This document shows positions 4,042 to 11,663 of a stretch of 64,000 nucleotides of DNA, piece by piece. Positions within the stretch are counted from its first letter, which is position 1, and every line of letters begins with the position of its first letter. The position numbers were made by a program, and so were the translations under genes. Origin of the DNA: Polaromonas sp. (GTDB lineage: Bacteria; Pseudomonadota; Gammaproteobacteria; Burkholderiales; Burkholderiaceae_C); contig NZ_JAQSDL010000043.1 of assembly GCF_029945895.1 (NCBI RefSeq), forward strand, positions 1 to 64,000. The letters run 5' to 3'. A model generated the notes under the pieces. The model did no database searches. It was not told the origin of the DNA and was given only the letters and a program-made list of their open reading frames with translations.

Positions 4042-5676
4042 ATGATCCGCCTGACCGAGCTCAAGCTGCCGCTTGATCACCCCGAAGATGCGCTGCCCGC
4101 GCTGATTGTCAAGACGCTGGGCATCCAGCCTGCCGAGCTGCTGCGCCACAGCATCTACAAACGCAGCTACGACGCACGCAAACAGAAGCTGCTGCTGGTC
4201 TACATCGCCGATGTCGAAGTGGCCAGCCCCGAGCTGGAGCAAACACTGCTCAGGCACTTTGAAGGCAACCCCCACATCCGCCCCGCCCCCGACCAGAGCT
4301 ACCACCTGGTGGCCAAGGTGGACAGCGCACCGGCTGTGCGCCCCGTCGTTGTCGGCTTCGGCCCCTGCGGCATTTTTGCGGCGCTGCTGCTGGCACAGAT
4401 GGGTTTCAAGCCCATCGTGCTGGAGCGCGGCAAGAAGGTACGGGAACGCACCAAGGACACCTGGGGCCTGTGGCGCAAGGGCGTGCTGGACCCGGAGTCG
4501 AATGTGCAGTTCGGCGAGGGCGGTGCCGGCACGTTTTCCGACGGCAAGCTCTGGAGCCAGATCAAGGACCCGCGTTTCCTCGGCCGCAAGGTCATGACGG
4601 AATTCGTCAAGGCCGGCGCGCCGGAGGAAATCCTGCTGGTCAGCAAGCCGCACATAGGCACCTTCAAGCTGGTCAAGGTGGTGGAACACATGCGCGAGCA
4701 GATCACGTCGCTGGGCGGCGAGATCCGCTTCCAGCAACGCGTCAGCGATGTGCAGATTGAACAGGGACACATTCGCGGGCTGACCGTGCAGAACCTGCAG
4801 GACGGCAGCAGCTACGAGCTGCGCGCCGACCATGTGGTGCTGGCACTGGGCCACAGCGCACGCGACACCTTTGCCATGCTGCATGAACGCGGCGTCTACA
4901 TGGAAGCCAAGCCTTTTTCGATCGGCTTTCGCATCGAACACCCGCAGGGCCTGATCGACCGCGCGCGGCTCGGCCAGCACGCCGGCCACCCGCTGCTGGG
5001 CGCGGCCGACTACAAGCTGGTGCACCACGCGGCCAACGGGCGCTCGGTCTACAGCTTCTGCATGTGCCCGGGCGGCACCGTGGTCGCCGCCACCTCCGAG
5101 GTGGGCCGGGTCGTGACCAACGGCATGAGCCAGTACTCGCGCAACGAGCGCAACGCCAACGCCGGCATCGTGGTCGGCATCACCCCAGCCGACTACCCGG
5201 GCGGGCCGCTGGCCGGCATCGACTTCCAGCGTGCGCTGGAATCACACGCCTTCACGCTGGGCGGCGGCACGTACGCAGCGCCTGGCCAGCTGGTCGGCGA
5301 CTTTGTCGCTGGCCAAGCCTCGACGCAGCTTGGCAGCGTAGAGCCTTCCTACAAGCCCGGCGTGCTGATGACCGACCTGGCCAGCGCCCTGCCCGCCTAT
5401 GCCATCATGGCCATGCGCGAGGCGCTGCCGGCCTTCGGCAAGAAGATCAAGGGTTTCGACATGCACGACGCCGTGCTGACCGGCGTTGAAACCCGCACTT
5501 CGTCGCCACTGCGCATCACGCGGGGCGACGACTTCCAGAGCCTGAACGTCCGGGGCCTGTACCCGGCCGGCGAAGGCGCCAGCTACGCGGGCGGCATTTT
5601 GTCGGCCGGGGTGGACGGCATCGAGGTGGCCGAGGCGGTGGCGTTGAGCATCACGGCTCAAGCTGCGAAGGCATAA
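4042..5676 (+). CDS. FAD-dependent dehydrogenase (COG2509-like)
   Basis: A 544-residue flavoprotein. After an N-terminal domain of about 100 residues comes a dinucleotide-binding beta-alpha-beta fold (VVVGFGPCGIFAALLLAQMG, near residue 100) ending in a glutamate-rich strand (IVLERG). A second motif, NVQFGEGGAGTFSDGKLW, is typical of the COG2509 FAD-dependent dehydrogenases of unknown substrate. The C-terminal FAD-contacting segment reads GLYPAGEGASYAGGILSAG. The ATG at 4042 has a GAGG Shine-Dalgarno about 9 bases upstream. It stands alone between rnpB and a strong terminator. The physiological reaction is unknown. Confidence 0.85.
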   Translation: MIRLTELKLPLDHPEDALPALIVKTLGIQPAELLRHSIYKRSYDARKQKLLLVYIADVEVASPELEQTLLRHFEGNPHIRPAPDQSYHLVAKVDSAPAVRPVVVGFGPCGIFAALLLAQMGFKPIVLERGKKVRERTKDTWGLWRKGVLDPESNVQFGEGGAGTFSDGKLWSQIKDPRFLGRKVMTEFVKAGAPEEILLVSKPHIGTFKLVKVVEHMREQITSLGGEIRFQQRVSDVQIEQGHIRGLTVQNLQDGSSYELRADHVVLALGHSARDTFAMLHERGVYMEAKPFSIGFRIEHPQGLIDRARLGQHAGHPLLGAADYKLVHHAANGRSVYSFCMCPGGTVVAATSEVGRVVTNGMSQYSRNERNANAGIVVGITPADYPGGPLAGIDFQRALESHAFTLGGGTYAAPGQLVGDFVAGQASTQLGSVEPSYKPGVLMTDLASALPAYAIMAMREALPAFGKKIKGFDMHDAVLTGVETRTSSPLRITRGDDFQSLNVRGLYPAGEGASYAGGILSAGVDGIEVAEAVALSITAQAAKA

Positions 5677-5706
5677 AAAAAGCCGCTGCACCTGCAGCGG
5701 CTTTTC
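5677..5706. terminator. Bidirectional rho-independent terminator
   Basis: A perfect hairpin (AAAGCCGCTGCA, loop CC, TGCAGCGGCTTT) flanked by A and T runs directly follows the FAD oxidoreductase stop codon. It sits just past the convergent htpX stop, so it can serve both genes. Confidence 0.9.
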
Positions 5707-5726
5707 TGGTTCGTGACCCTGACAGC

Positions 5727-6611
5727 TCAGACCTGACCAGGCTGTGCGTTCTGCAGCGCGGCAATACGCTCTTCAATCGGCGGGTGCGTGGCAAACAGCT
5801 GGCCGATGCTGCCGGTGATGCCCATGGCTTCCACCGCCTTGGGCAGCTGGCCGGGCACCATGCCGCCCAGACGGGCCAGCGCGTTGATCATGGGCTGTTT
5901 GCGGCCCATCAGCTGGGCGGCGCCGGCGTCGGCGCGGAACTCGCGGTGGCGCGAGAACCAGGCGACCACGATGGCGGCGGCAAAACCGAGCACGATGTCG
6001 AGCACGATGGTGCTGACGTAATAACCGATGCCGGGGCCGGAGTTGCTGTCGCTGCCCTTGCGCAGAAAGCTGTCCACCGCATAACCGATGACGCGGCTCA
6101 GGAACACCACAAAGGTGTTCATCACGCCCTGGATCAAGGTCATGGTCACCATGTCACCGTTGGCCACGTGGGCAATCTCGTGCCCCAGCACGGCTTCAAT
6201 CTCTTCACGCGTCATGCCCTGCAGCAGGCCGGTGGAGACGGCGACCAGCGCCGAGTTCTTGAAAGCCCCCGTGGCAAAGGCGTTGGGCGCGCCTTCGAAA
6301 ATGCCGACTTCGGGCATGCCGATGCCGGCGGTGGTCGCCAGCTTGCGCACGGTTTCGACAATCCAGGCTTCGTCGGCATTTTGCGGTTCGTTGATCACGC
6401 GCACGCCAGAACTCCACTTGGCCACGGGCTTGCTGATCAACAGCGAGATGATGGCGCCGCCAAAACCGATGACCGCGGCAAAACCGAGCAGCATGCCCAG
6501 GTTCAGCCCTTGCGGCGTGAGGTAGCGGTTGACGCCCAGCAGGCTGGCGACAATGCCCAGCACCACCACAACGGCGAGGTTGGTCATGACAAATAAAACA
6601 ATACGCTTCAT
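5727..6611 (-). CDS. htpX: Membrane zinc metalloprotease HtpX
   Basis: A 294-residue inner-membrane M48 protease that helps degrade misfolded membrane proteins. Two hydrophobic segments occupy about residues 4-58. The zinc motif HEIAH is at residues 144-148, followed by two more membrane segments, and the third-ligand region (EFRADAGAA) is further on. I chose the ATG at 6609-6611 because GGAG lies 6 bases upstream. A 20-residue upstream extension in the same frame lacks a comparable site. Length and motifs are normal. Confidence 0.96.
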
Positions 6612-6742
6612 GGATGCTCCGTAGAGAACGATAACGAACAGATGCTGCTGCAGGAAAGACTCATGCGGCACATGGGGAGGCTTCCGCCCAAAATCAAGAT
6701 GGCGGGGCTGACCGTGGCGCAGGATTTTTTACTGGGTGTTGT

Positions 6743-7498
6743 TCACCGGCGCGGGCGGAATACGAAAGAGTCATCATAAAAGGAAAAGTTCTCGTTCTCC
6801 GGCCACCAGAGCGGCACACCGAGCACCGGCAAGGGCAGAAAGGGTTTGGCCGCCAGCCTTTCCGCACTCAGGTCGGCCGCCACCCAGGCGTCCAGATCCG
6901 CTATGGAATTCATAGCTGGCTGCGCCCGGTAGATATGGGCTGTGATCGGTTTTCGTGGGTAAACCAGCTTTTCCAGCAAGGCATGGCCAAACAGCACCAG
7001 CTGCGCCTGCTGCCAGAGCGGGCGCAGGTCAATAAACAGGCGCTGCCAGTGGCGTCCGGCCAGCGCATCCCACAGCGGCGCCGGTGCCGACAGAAAGGCC
7101 GCGTTTTCGTCGAACACCGTCAGTGCGTCGCGCACCGGCCCGCGCAGCGGCGCCACACCGGCCGCGGCGATTTCTGCCGCCTGCAGCTGGTTGAGCTTTT
7201 TCTTGGTCAGCGGAAAGCGCATCCAGCACAGCCCGTTGAAAAAGTCGTGCAGGTTGTCGCGTGTCGGAACGGTGCCGGTGTCAAAAATGAACTGCTCGTA
7301 AGCCTGCCCGTCGGGCAAGGCCGACTGCGGCACAAAACGCCGTGGCGCAGCTGGTTCGCGGTTCAGGGCTTCATGACACGACACACCGGCTGCAATGGCC
7401 TGGGCCACGCGCTCCCCGGGCTCGCGCCAGACGTTCAGCCAAGGCTGGGACCAATCAATCTGGACTACCGATACTGTCCCTGTCGCCGACGCTCGCAC
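6743..7498 (-). CDS. DUF3025 domain-containing protein carrying an in-frame repeat
   Basis: A 251-residue protein with the DUF3025 signature (FVPQSALPDGQAYEQFIFDT, then PTRDNLHDFFNGLCWMRFP). Its function is unknown. The GTG start abuts the TAG stop of the upstream NYN gene, suggesting translational coupling. No better start is visible before the conserved IDW. Residues about 182-200 are encoded by a family-1 dispersed repeat in frame (PRKPITAHIYRAQPAMN region), which is unlike an ordinary domain insertion. Confidence 0.8.
   Translation of the reverse strand: MRASATGTVSVVQIDWSQPWLNVWREPGERVAQAIAAGVSCHEALNREPAAPRRFVPQSALPDGQAYEQFIFDTGTVPTRDNLHDFFNGLCWMRFPLTKKKLNQLQAAEIAAAGVAPLRGPVRDALTVFDENAAFLSAPAPLWDALAGRHWQRLFIDLRPLWQQAQLVLFGHALLEKLVYPRKPITAHIYRAQPAMNSIADLDAWVAADLSAERLAAKPFLPLPVLGVPLWWPENENFSFYDDSFVFRPRR
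6900..6955 (+). repeat. Family-1 dispersed repeat, copy B (inside DUF3025 gene)
   Basis: ATAGCTG, GCTG, CGC, 10 nt, TGGGC. The 3-prime half is more diverged than in other copies. It is read antisense through the DUF3025 gene without a stop, contributing about 19 residues. Confidence 0.65.
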
Positions 7499-8320
7499 CT
7501 ACAGACCGTTCAAAAGTTTCACCTTGTTCGGCTGTTTATCAGGAGTCAGCTCAAACCAACCTGGATACTTTTTGAAAAACTTGGTGGAAGTCGCATTCTT
7601 TCCCAGAAGTTTGGCGTCATGCAGCAATTTGACGACATCTCCGAGGGGCTGTGGCCGTCCAGTTTTCAATGTCGGCACAGCAGCGAGAATGTGCTGAACC
7701 TCAATTTTCACAGCGACATCAGCTTCTTTTCCCTTTACCGCCGCCACGGTCTTTTTAGCTGCGGTCTTCTTGGAAGGCGCATTTTTTTTTGCGACTTTCT
7801 TCGCTGAAACTTTTTTGGCAACTACTTTTTTGGCAGGCGAAGGGGCTAAAGATGCAGTTGGCCCGCTTAGCTCTGAGCTTGGCGACGACATCTCATGCGA
7901 GGCAGATTCTCGTCCAACCAAAATCACTTGGTCATACCAGTGTTCGGCTTCTGGAGACATCTTTCCCGGCTCCGAAACACAAACCATCCGGATACCGCGT
8001 TCGCGGAGCCTGACTACCAGAGGTACGAAGTCGGCATCTCCAGAACCGATAACAACTGTCGTGGGCATCGGCAATTGCCAAGACAGTTCCATGGCATCAA
8101 CGGCTAGGGCAACATCGGTTGTATTTTTCGACATCGAGAGATTGGCGAATGGCCGTATCGCTCGAGCATGAAGCACCGAGGACATGCCTTTGAGCTTCTC
8201 AGCGCTACCGTAGGCTCGCCTAACCGAAATTCCACCTTCGGCTTCTTCAAGCTTCTGAAACGCCTCTTCGATCCATGCTGATGCACATAGATTGTCCGCG
8301 TCTATCAAGAATACGATCAT
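7499..8320 (-). CDS. NYN-domain protein with basic linker and putative LOTUS-like C-terminus
   Basis: A 273-residue protein. The N-terminal NYN (PIN-like) domain shows MIVFLIDADN, then DVALAVDAMEL and VIGSGDADFVPLV, the acidic positions expected for a metal-dependent RNase fold. A Lys/Ala-rich linker follows (about residues 155-195, repeats such as AKKVSAKKVAKK). The C-terminal segment of about 70 residues (LLHDAKLLGKNATSTKFFKKYPGWFEL) resembles the OST-HTH/LOTUS RNA-binding fold. The ATG at 8318-8320 sits directly before the NYN core. Base composition is visibly AT-richer than neighbouring genes, hinting at transfer. The likely role is RNA binding or cleavage; the substrate is unknown. Confidence 0.8.
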   Translation of the reverse strand: MIVFLIDADNLCASAWIEEAFQKLEEAEGGISVRRAYGSAEKLKGMSSVLHARAIRPFANLSMSKNTTDVALAVDAMELSWQLPMPTTVVIGSGDADFVPLVVRLRERGIRMVCVSEPGKMSPEAEHWYDQVILVGRESASHEMSSPSSELSGPTASLAPSPAKKVVAKKVSAKKVAKKNAPSKKTAAKKTVAAVKGKEADVAVKIEVQHILAAVPTLKTGRPQPLGDVVKLLHDAKLLGKNATSTKFFKKYPGWFELTPDKQPNKVKLLNGL

Positions 8321-8370
8321 GCTTTGCCTTTCTTGTCTTTGCATTCGTCAGAGCATTGTGACGTAAGCAT

Positions 8371-9426
8371 TCAGGTCACCAACCTCCAGGCCAGCGCTTC
8401 GCCCGAACGCAGCGGCTTGAGTTCGGCCTCGCCAAAGGCAAAACTCTCGGGTGGCGTCCAGCGTTCCTTCTTCAGCGTGACGGTGCCCTGGTTGCGCGGC
8501 AGGCCGTAGAAGTCGGCCCCGTTGAAGCTGGCGAAGGCCTCGAGCCTGTCCATGGCGCCCACGGCATCAAAGGCCTCGGCATACAACTCCATCGCCGCGT
8601 GGGCGGTGTAACAGCCGGCGCAGCCGGTGGCGTGTTCCTTCAGGTGGGCCGGGTGCGGGGCGCTGTCGGTGCCCAGAAAAAACCGGGGGTTGCCGCCGGT
8701 CGCGGCTTCCACCAGCGCCACACGATGGGTTTCGCGTTTGAGCACCGGCAGGCAGTAATAGTGCGGGCGGATGCCACCGGTGAAGATGGCGTTGCGGTTG
8801 TAGAGCAGGTGGTGCGCGGTGAGGGTGGCCCCTAGAAAGCGGCCAGCGTCGCGCACATAATGCGCGGCCTCTTTCGTCGTGATGTGTTCGAACACGATTT
8901 TCAGCTCCGGAAAATCGCGGCGCAGCGGGATCAGCTGGGTGTCGATGAACACCGCCTCGCGGTCGAACAGGTCGATCTCGGGCGAGGTCACCTCGCCATG
9001 CACCAGCAGCAGCAGGCCTTCGCGCTGCATGGCTTCCAGCGTCTTGTAAGTCTTGCGCAGGTCGGTCACGCCGGCGTCGCTGTTGGTGGTGGCGCCGGCC
9101 GGGTAGAGCTTGAGCGCGACCACACCGGCGTCCCGGGCGCGTTTGATTTCGTCAGGCGGCAGGTTGTCGGTCAGGTACAGCGTCATCAGCGGCTCGAAGG
9201 CCACCCCTGCCGGCACGGCCGCCTGAATGCGCTCGCGGTACGCCATGGCCTGCGCCGCAGTGGTCACCGGCGGGCGCAGGTTGGGCATGATGATGGCGCG
9301 GCCGAACTGAGCCGCGGTGTGTGGCACCACGGTGCTCAGGGCATCGCCGTCACGCACATGCAGGTGCCAGTCGTCCGGTCGGGTCAGGGTCAGGGAAGTG
9401 GGGGTCGTGGGGGCGGCTGAGGTCAT
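8371..9426 (-). CDS. pyrC: Dihydroorotase
   Basis: A 351-residue class II dihydroorotase, interconverting N-carbamoyl-aspartate and dihydroorotate in pyrimidine synthesis. Metal ligands HLH are in [10 protein letters not shown] (H21, H23). The carbamylated lysine is K106 in [10 protein letters not shown]. Further ligands are in LLVHGEV, FEHITT and [10 protein letters not shown]. The start ATG at 9424-9426 places the conserved [10 protein letters not shown] about 15 residues in; an upstream extension of 18 residues is not conserved. All key residues are present. Confidence 0.96.
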
Positions 9427-9493
9427 GACCTGAATTGTCTCACCGGCGGCCCTTGCTAGGCACATCCGCAGGCCCGGCACGGCCCTGACGCGG

Positions 9494-9910
9494 CTACAGC
9501 AGGTAGTCGCCGCTTTCTTCCGGCTGGAACAGGATGTCCACGATTTTCGCCGTAGCCGTGCCGCCGTCCGGCGTGGGCCAGCGGGCCATGCGTCCTTTCT
9601 TCAGGCCCAGCAGGCCTGCACCGACCGGCGACAGCACCGAAACAAATCCGGCCGCTGGATCCGCGTCGTGCGGGTAACACAGGACCAGCTTACGCTGTTC
9701 ACCGGTCCGTGCATCCGCAATCAGGACCTGGGAATACATGGTGACGACGTTGGCGGGCACCTGGTACGAGGAAATCAGTTCTGCGCTGTGGATCAGATCC
9801 TCCACCTCGGCCTCCGTCTCCGGTGAGGCGCCCGGGCGCTGGAGCAGCTTGCTGATACGGATGTGGTCAAGCTCGGTCAGCAGACGCGCCGGCTGGTTGG
9901 AAAAAAACAT
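9494..9910 (-). CDS. rnk: Rnk-family GreA/GreB-like regulator
   Basis: A 138-residue protein of the Rnk family (regulator of nucleoside diphosphate kinase), built of a short N-terminal coiled coil and a GreA/GreB C-terminal domain that docks on RNA polymerase. The C-terminal half reads [20 protein letters not shown], then [18 protein letters not shown], characteristic of the Gre C-domain. The ATG at 9908-9910 has AGGAG 6 bases upstream and is preferred over an earlier in-frame start. It is transcribed towards pyrC. Confidence 0.88.
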
Positions 9911-10033
9911 GGGAACTCCTGAATCAAACGCCCGGGTCAAGGCTGGCCGGGCACGCCGCGCGGAAGGCGAGGGGCCCGGTGATCCAGAAATGCGCTAAAA
10001 GAAAAGGAAGGGGAGGGAGTTGGATCGCCGGGC

Positions 10034-10159
10034 TCAGGAATGTGCGACGGGCTGATGCGGCCACTGCACGTCCAGACCCGCGCATGCACCGGCCGCCACG
10101 GACACAAGGCCGGGCAACAGGCGCGCAAAACGCGGGAGGCGGTTCAAAGAGGCGGACAT
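10034..10159 (-). CDS. Possible small ORF, 41 residues
   Basis: A short frame in the 296-bp gap between rnk and gltL. It begins MSASLNRLPRFARLLPG and continues with a hydrophobic, small-residue segment (LVSVAAGACAG), like a signal or membrane segment. No clear ribosome-binding site precedes it and no family is recognised. It may be spurious; nothing else is visible in the gap. Confidence 0.2.
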   Translation of the reverse strand: MSASLNRLPRFARLLPGLVSVAAGACAGLDVQWPHQPVAHS

Positions 10160-10206
10160 GGCTATACCGTACACCGGGGACCAGCCCCGGGTCAAGGCAA
10201 GACCTT

Positions 10207-10944
10207 TTAATGCTGCAGGATTTTGTTGAGGAAGTCCCGCGTCCGCTCCTGGCGGTTCTCGGGGTGGCTGAAAAATTCGTCCTTCGTGCAGTCTTCCAGG
10301 ATCTTGCCGCCCACGTCCATGAAAATCACGCGGCTACCGACCTTGCGGGCAAAACCCATCTCGTGCGTGACCACCATCATGGTCATGCCTTCGACGGCCA
10401 GGCCCATCATGCAATCGAGCACCTCGCCGACCATTTCAGGGTCGAGCGCCGAGGTTGGCTCGTCGAACAGCATGGCAATCGGGTCCATGCTCAGCGCTCG
10501 GGCAATCGCCACACGCTGCTGCTGGCCGCCCGAGAGCTGGCCGGGGAACTTGTCCTTGTGCGCCATCAGGCCCACGCGGTCGAGGTACTTCAAGCCGTGC
10601 GTTTTGGCTTCTTCGGCCCCGCGGCCCAGCACCTTGATCTGGGCCAGGGTCAGGTTTTCCGTCACGCTCAGGTGCGGGAACAGCTCGAAGTTCTGGAACA
10701 CCATGCCGACACGCGAGCGCAGCTTGGGCAGGTCGGTCTTGGGGTCGTGCACGGCCTGGCCGTCCACGTAGATCTCGCCCTTCTGGAAAGGCTCGAGTGC
10801 GTTGATGGTCTTGATCAGCGTCGACTTGCCCGAGCCGGACGGGCCGCAGACCACCACCACCTCGCCTTTCTTGATGCTGGTGCTGCAGTTGTTGAGCACC
10901 TGCACGGCGCCATACCATTTGGAAACTTCTTTGAGTTCGATCAT
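10207..10944 (-). CDS. gltL: Glutamate/aspartate ABC transporter ATPase
   Basis: A 245-residue ATP-binding subunit of a polar amino-acid importer. Walker A is GPSGSGKST (residues 34-42), the Q-loop [10 protein letters not shown], the signature LSGGQQQR, Walker [12 protein letters not shown], and the switch histidine is in VVTHEMGFA. The protein matches GltL/GlnQ in length and motifs. It is the last gene of the gltIJKL operon. Confidence 0.94.
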
Positions 10945-10976
10945 CTTGTTTCTCCGGGAGCGGGTGCGATGGGTTG

Positions 10977-11663
10977 TTAGCGAATGATGGCGATCTTGTT
11001 TTGCAGCTTCTTGACGATGTACGACAGGCCAAAACAGATCACAAAATAAACCACGGCGGCCAGCAGGTAGGCCTCTTCGGGTCGGCCGTAGATCTTGCCC
11101 GCCGTCGTCAGGCCCTTGAGCAGGTCGTAGGCGCCGATGGCGTAGACCAGCGAGGTGTCCTGGAACAGGATGATGGTCTGCGTCAGCAAAATCGGCACCA
11201 TGTTGCGAAAGGCCTGCGGCAGCACGATCAGGCGCATGTTCTGTGCGTAGGTCATGCCCAGCGCGCGCCCGGCGTTGACCTGGCCGCGCGAGATCGACTG
11301 GATGCCGGCGCGCATGATCTCACTGAAATAGGCGGCTTCAAACGCAATGAAGGTGATGATGGCCGAGATTTCGGAACGGTTGTTGGCGCCGCCGGGAATC
11401 ATGTCAAAAAATGCGGCGGGCATCAGCAGGTAAAACCACAGGATCACCATGACCAGCGGCACCGAACGCATGCCGTTGACGTAAAAAGTCGCGGGAACCG
11501 TCAGCAGCCTGGTGCCCGAAAGCCGCATCAGCGCCAGCAGCGTCCCCAGAATGATGCCGCCTATGGTCGCAATCACCGTCAGCTCCACGCTGAAAATGAA
11601 ACCCTTGATGACGAACTTGGAAATGATGTCCCAGTTCAGGAAGCTCATGTCGAGACCCAGCAT
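10977..11663 (-). CDS. gltK: Glutamate/aspartate ABC permease, GltK type
   Basis: A 228-residue permease of the HisMQ/GltK family with about five membrane segments. The EAA loop ([23 protein letters not shown] region) contacts the ATPase. The chosen ATG lies one base after the gltJ stop (TGACATG), consistent with translational coupling. An alternative ATG five codons downstream (11648) is possible. Together with GltJ it forms the membrane channel. Confidence 0.92.

Follow-up and report, generated by a model that had tools for sequence, protein, structure and literature searches.

A lower-GC NYN nuclease gene with a predicted LOTUS-like tail in a recurrent slot behind pyrC of Polaromonas

What does a nuclease gene of low GC content do between the housekeeping genes of a Polaromonas species, and how did it come to lie there? 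We addressed these questions in the first 64,000 nucleotides of contig NZ_JAQSDL010000043.1 (the whole stretch of DNA analyzed, hereafter the window). We consider it likely that the gene encodes a metal-dependent NYN endoribonuclease with an RNA-holding linker and tail, that it sits in a slot behind pyrC where this lower-GC, window-type gene displaced the canonical one, and that it carries out a conserved but dispensable RNA job. The argument draws on the following features.

5727..6671, minus strand: htpX, next in the array after DUF3025 (NF003965, E 1.4e-125)
6743..7498, minus strand: DUF3025 gene, downstream border of the slot (PF11227, E 5.3e-73)
7445..8384, no strand: segment without nucleotide match to three sister species, GC 50.5% (nucleotide alignment)
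7499..8320, minus strand: NYN nuclease gene, 273 amino acids, of the window type (also P type, PA lineage) (open reading frame and Pfam)
7502..7726, minus strand: C-terminal winged-helix tail, residues 199-273, predicted LOTUS-like fold, without Pfam match (models, profiles)
7721..7906, minus strand: Lys/Ala/Pro linker, residues 139-200, predicted disordered (pLDDT)
7907..8320, minus strand: NYN (PIN-like) nuclease domain, residues 1-138, with invariant D7, D9, N10, D69, D75, D95 and D97 (Pfam, alignment, model)
8371..9420, minus strand, start codon assumed at 9420: pyrC, dihydroorotase, upstream border of the slot (TIGR00856, E 2.3e-136)

Gene, neighbors, and composition

The NYN gene reads on the minus strand from an ATG at 8320 to a stop codon at 7501-7499. 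It begins 50 bp after the end of pyrC, and the DUF3025 open reading frame has a predicted GTG start (from the reading frame alone) immediately after the NYN stop codon. The original prediction had described the gene, placed it at 7499-8320, named pyrC, DUF3025, and htpX as its neighbors, and noted that DUF3025 abuts it; open reading frames and Pfam and NCBIfam matches bear all of this out. Its claim of an AT-richer gene also holds, with a GC content of 50.2% against 62.9% for the whole 64-kb window. At third codon positions, the difference is larger still (50.4% in the NYN gene versus 74% in DUF3025, 82% in htpX, and 85% in pyrC). The lowest GC among 49 mechanically picked long open reading frames of the window was 57%, in a list that excludes the NYN frame itself because an overlapping frame took its place.

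The NYN gene is probably read within the pyrC transcript. In a promoter scan of 6600-9600, the strand of the gene showed no sigma-70-like site and the opposite strand one weak site, which neither supports nor excludes co-transcription of pyrC and the NYN gene.

Nuclease domain, linker, and tail

From sequence and model, the assignment of the N-terminal domain to the NYN family is certain. Pfam NYN (PF01936) matches residues 5-127 of the window protein (E 1.9e-19; 71 bits, cut-off 24.2) and was found in all 28 proteins of the first alignment, the window protein included (E up to 1). Six aspartates, D7, D9, D69, D75, D95, and D97, are invariant in all 53 sequences of an alignment made of the window protein and 52 of the best 80 of 383 named-genome relatives; a second alignment comprises the window protein and 49 named-genome relatives. 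We take these six residues to be catalytic, as in the NYN family. A PIN-like NYN nuclease with acidic residues had been predicted, and loss of those residues in orthologs, which would have spoken against the prediction, was not seen in any of the 53. The AlphaFold2 model built on the 53 sequences gave this domain a pLDDT of 87-98 per block of ten residues. Its closest solved structures are those of the MARF1 NYN domain (Foldseek E 3.3e-7; VIA-align 2 Z 18.0, rmsd 2.5 over 138 residues at 19% identity). The bacterial protein VPA0982 of Vibrio (2qip) superposed at Z 16.3 and is the sole solved chain that a sequence profile reached at E <0.001. The score against the TIGR00288 NYN family was 26.3 bits, below its curated cut-off of 178.45. 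The product is probably an active nuclease, a new variant of a known architecture.

The basic Lys/Ala linker of the original prediction lies at about residues 139-200 and is predicted to be disordered (pLDDT 46-57 per block over residues 141-200, AlphaFold2). A Pfam scan gave it a weak, histone H1-like HC2 match under the HC2 cut-off. Behind it, the tail is confidently folded in the full-length model (pLDDT 85 at residues 201-210 and 94-97 at residues 211-270), and when modeled alone it reached a mean pLDDT of 82.6. Its predicted order is four helices followed by two strands.

The structural neighbors of the tail point toward LOTUS domains. The top entries are a MARF1 LOTUS domain (5yad, Z 6.9) and residues 93-167 of Egalitarian (Z up to 6.9), followed by TDRD5 and TDRD7 (Z 6.2) and Tejas (Z 5.9); in all, LOTUS or LOTUS-like domains make up 12 of the top 22 entries, at Z 5.9-6.9. 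The N-terminal domains of Egalitarian closely resemble LOTUS, according to the part of the source consulted (PMC13186709), and the matched residues are presumably one of them. However, non-LOTUS winged helices score nearly as high (MCM, Z 6.5; YodB, Z 6.4), a difference that the tool's own criterion counts as a tie. Foldseek with the tail alone returned no significant match (best E 0.22), and the tail profile had a single match among PDB sequences, at E 0.6.

Sequence comparison did not link the tail to the OST-HTH family. With E values up to 1 admitted, Pfam OST-HTH (PF12872) matched none of 28 and none of 10 window-type proteins, and the window tail alone had no match at E up to 10, whereas the same model matched all 17 canonical proteins scanned, from the slot and elsewhere, as a positive control. 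An hhalign comparison of window-type with canonical OST-HTH tails gave a probability of 0.13%, a score equaled by 92 of 150 column-shuffled controls; a smaller set gave 0.3%. Tails of intermediate appearance (G-x-KPL-x-x-LF) clearly joined the window-type tails (E 7.4e-13). Against canonical tails, 42 of 150 shuffles scored as high as these intermediate tails, and Pfam OST-HTH matched neither of the two such tails scanned. With Pfam, profile-profile, and tail-alone comparisons all negative, we rejected the assignment of the tail to Pfam OST-HTH by sequence. Because its LOTUS scores are tied with those of other winged helices and have no sequence support, we apply the term LOTUS-like only to the predicted fold of the tail and do not assign the tail to OST-HTH. 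The predicted LOTUS-like or OST-HTH tail thus survives in part: The winged helix folds in the model and LOTUS domains top its list, in a tie, but the OST-HTH match is absent. It may represent a bacterial relative of the LOTUS fold.

Like the window protein, most relatives with a tail match carry one copy. Among 193 NYN proteins of all types (some fetched twice), 117 had a tail match, as a single copy in 108, two copies in eight, and three copies in one. The multicopy proteins come from eight different loci (L156, L196, L059, L090, L092, L094, L047, and L055), of which one was fetched twice; these window-type proteins parallel the tandem arrangement of LOTUS domains.

In the mechanism that we infer, the basic, disordered linker and the LOTUS-like tail most likely act together, binding RNA and offering it to the active site of an NYN-type endoribonuclease, whose metal dependence would follow from its family, fold, and conserved residues. 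The winged helix may instead bind DNA or protein.

The slot behind pyrC and gene replacement

The original prediction treated the gene's setting as a landing site among housekeeping genes. We find instead that its place is a recurrent NYN slot behind pyrC, and we dropped the idea of a chance newcomer among housekeeping genes. In the best 80 of 383 named-genome relatives, a set gathered by NYN similarity, 73 loci have pyrC upstream in the same orientation, 72 of them within 170 bp, and the distance between the pyrC match and the NYN gene is often 0-20 bp. The same arrangement is seen in 26 of the 28 loci L129-L156. The seven loci of the 80 without pyrC upstream (L158, L159, L163, L164, L165, L167, and L170) all belong to the window's lineage, to which L167 and L170 were assigned through the identical proteins L132 and L130.

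A genus set gathered via DUF3025, and thus free of the NYN-similarity bias, shows the states of the slot. DUF3025 was present in 78 of 87 genus genomes (nine had no match), and the slot was read in 70 species (eight were unread): 26 carry a canonical NYN-OST-HTH gene, eight carry a window-type gene, and 36 carry no NYN gene, their pyrC and DUF3025 matches being at most 218 bp apart. Because 36 of the 70 species have none in the slot, the NYN gene is not essential in the genus. In this bacterial family, the slot holds one of several distantly related NYN nucleases or none. In one genome (L105, G065), the sequence retrieved upstream of DUF3025 showed no pyrC, and an OST-HTH match lies 5.5 kb upstream of DUF3025 (G065:C1:1051998-1052192); for these two reasons we no longer code this slot as empty. 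The arrangement suggests that an insertion into the slot pushed a canonical gene out of place.

The slot has room for little else. Across 150 loci with both pyrC and DUF3025 (a set partly gathered by NYN similarity, with some genomes represented twice and the frames inside the gaps not listed singly), the 36 gaps without an NYN gene measure at most 218 bp, and 110 of the 114 with one measure less than 1300 bp; the gap in L183 is exceptional at 2440 bp. These sizes bear on whether the gene encodes the toxin of a toxin-antitoxin pair, like PIN-domain VapC. Such a toxin would share the PIN-like fold and the nuclease residues, yet the window locus, with pyrC 50 bp upstream and DUF3025 abutting downstream, has no room for a partner gene and has no VapC-like adjacent antitoxin gene, and the gaps in relatives leave little room either. 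We regard a toxin as very improbable.

Comparison with sister species argues for replacement. In a flank-protein tree, the window nests among five canonical-type species (support 97), and these five nearest species all carry the canonical gene. In the three of the five whose nucleotide flanks were aligned (L032, L034, and L036), identity of about 90% stops some 60 bp outside the gene on both sides. A topology grouping the window with the carrier L038 was rejected at p-AU 0.005; this pair was picked once the tree was known. Because the five nearest species are all canonical and the flanks are about 90% identical in the three that were aligned, this comparison of sequences shows that, inside a stretch of about 940 bp, one NYN nuclease has taken the place of another. 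The predicted compositional newcomer, read from low GC, thereby gains support from the flank trees. In this lineage, the lower-GC window-type gene displaced a canonical NYN-OST-HTH gene, presumably by recombination inside the flanking genes or at their borders. Searches of the window's own genome gave a single NYN match and none to OST-HTH; as this genome is 95% complete, a canonical copy could still lie in the missing part. The same OST-HTH search found nothing in 14 control genomes and matches in 40 of 87 genus genomes. A second case is Variovorax sp. DXTD-1 (L157), which carries the window lineage in a 19-row, almost all-Variovorax clade whose other 18 rows carry another lineage.

Could the same gene have diverged fast in place, with no replacement at all? 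The NYN fold and the slot are common to all types, so an old common origin is conceivable. However, among the five nearest species the three pairs of canonical proteins compared show 99-100% identity. The window protein shares 42% identity with these canonical proteins, aligned over residues 2-109 only, yet 62% over residues 1-269 with a protein from another genus of the family (G755). Furthermore, the NYN-protein tree (FastTree, with three truncated proteins and rows sharing their first 165 residues excluded, and with a warning from the tool that long branches meet) conflicts with the flank tree. In-place divergence is hardly credible on these grounds and already strongly disfavored.

Proteins of the window type are spread over the family. 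A short sequence pattern found no close relatives in genome contigs and viral contigs. A profile from the first alignment yielded the 383 named-genome relatives from which the best 80 were taken, together with nine viral-contig loci. A family-level search matched 182 of 299 genomes at E up to 0.001, all NYN types mixed, and the best family matches share 38-62% identity over almost their full length. The window-type tail profile matched 4 of 398 genomes in a phylum-wide set (the window's own, two of the same family, and a marginal 24-bit match elsewhere) and 4 of 300 in an order set (the window's genome, a second genome from its family, G138 from a different family, and a marginal 21-bit match).

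Selection, function, and known systems

Both types of gene are under purifying selection and are thus working genes: dN/dS is 0.05-0.15 in eight window-type pairs and 0.01-0.03 in four canonical pairs. Three close-species pairs of canonical proteins are 99-100% identical and a more distant pair 93%; in close species, the canonical gene is conserved like a housekeeping gene. Such selection favors a cellular RNA job and speaks against a pure arms-race gene. It points to a conserved but dispensable role that would lie in RNA processing or RNA turnover.

Frequent absence and exchange nevertheless keep a defensive reading open, in which the slot serves as a small site for exchanging RNases directed against phages or plasmids, divergent versions being swapped because they face different invaders, as in defense hotspots. 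The genus flank tree of 70 species has at least 13 changes of slot state (14 when L105 is coded as empty), and a tree of 81 chosen loci has 13 changes among four lineages. The low GC of the window gene fits such traffic, as do NYN-domain relatives on 153 plasmid records, four phage records, and nine viral contigs. PADLOC reported a partial match of the NYN protein to a LabA-like NYN nuclease (E 2.7e-7, residues 68-135 only) and a match to HEC-09 (E 0.0013). On the other side stand the strong purifying selection, with its near-identical canonical pairs, and the gaps in 150 loci, which leave room for little besides the NYN gene. In addition, pyrC, DUF3025, and htpX, as identified by NCBIfam and Pfam, are not known defense genes, and the window-type tail gave nothing below E 0.1 in 12 mobile loci (two plasmid, one phage, and nine viral contigs). 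We therefore judge a defense slot to be unlikely, though worth keeping in view.

We gave up the idea of a window-type tail in mobile relatives, since the tail profile was negative in the 12 mobile loci examined; by eye, the R-x-YG motif of canonical tails is present in 11 of these 12 NYN proteins. Klebsiella accounts for 106 plasmid records with a relative of the window NYN domain. On the one Klebsiella plasmid examined (L246, NZ_AP026424.1), repA is followed by an NYN gene whose tail looks canonical. Another such gene, on a gentR plasmid of Sphingomonas sp. (L247, NZ_CP144671.1, 86741-93109), adjoins genes annotated as a DNA phosphorothioation-associated putative methyltransferase and as an FtsK/SpoIIIE-domain protein, a possible defense context.

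The near-constant place behind pyrC, often at 0-20 bp in the best 80 of 383 relatives, invites another reading: a regulator of pyrimidine synthesis, co-expressed with pyrC, that cleaves or binds pyrC mRNA or some other transcript from this pathway. One window-type gene, in a Polaromonas metagenome genome (L170:497-2479), follows pyrD instead of pyrC at a distance of about 90 bp, which gives a second tie to pyrimidine synthesis. Yet this is the only one of six non-pyrC loci examined (all but L165) to adjoin a recognized pyr gene, the neighbors of the others being judged by eye, and in 36 of 70 genus species pyrC has no NYN gene behind it. No Rfam element was found at gathering thresholds in window positions 5500-11000, and neighborhood alone shows no regulation. 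We hold such a regulator to be quite improbable. A broader conjecture, speculative and rather unlikely in our view, is an exchange slot for interchangeable, deeply diverged RNA-cutting nucleases, one lineage of which has a new LOTUS-like RNA-binding family, with work tied to pyrimidine supply, such as trimming or recycling RNA at low UMP or during phage attack.

The reading that we prefer, a displaced-in NYN endoribonuclease with a dispensable RNA job, can be set against known systems. Bacterial proteins that combine an LK-nuclease (DUF88/NYN) with OST-HTH were described in 2010 by Anantharaman, Zhang and Aravind; the portion of that survey consulted reports lateral transfer, proposes a stand-alone RNA degradation enzyme, and finds no conserved neighborhood with known RNA-processing systems (PMC2848206). 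The pairing of NYN with OST-HTH in the original prediction is thus a bacterial architecture already known from that source, although the tail here lacks an OST-HTH match. By Pfam, the canonical slot genes of the sister species belong to this group. The window protein, compared with the same part of the survey, is like the proteins described there in its N-terminal PIN-superfamily nuclease and C-terminal winged helix (single or duplicated in those proteins) and unlike them in a tail that has no OST-HTH match by sequence. The pyrC neighborhood is conserved here within one Burkholderiales family, whereas the survey, as far as consulted, reported none with RNA-processing systems. In the collection searched, literature on pyrC with the NYN domain, on Variovorax NYN proteins, and on DUF3025 did not describe the pyrC slot. 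What sets this variant apart is a tail without a Pfam model, a recurrent place behind pyrC, and the replacement of the usual version.

Bacterial NYN-OST-HTH proteins have so far had a predicted RNase function, judging from the part of the literature consulted, and the slot in Comamonadaceae and Sphaerotilaceae offers a genomic handle on proteins of this type. The natural swap in otherwise very similar chromosomes provides allele pairs for testing whether both tails do the same job.

Among solved structures, MARF1 (Limkain b1) of mammals supplies both the closest NYN folds (5yaa, 6fdl) and, in a tie, the LOTUS domain that tops the tail list (5yad). Its NYN domain is an endoribonuclease, according to the portion of the source consulted (PMC6294520). 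The MARF1-type likeness that had been predicted is therefore partial. It stands in the NYN domain and in the tied LOTUS list, but human MARF1 has eight LOTUS domains and two RRMs by the sources as consulted, against one tail in the window protein (one to three in relatives) and no RRM match at E up to 10; we rejected the full architecture of NYN, RRM, and tandem LOTUS. Vibrio VPA0982, a bacterial NYN/DUF88 protein, shares the NYN fold at 19% identity and, unlike the window protein, is a short chain of 162-165 residues without a tail.
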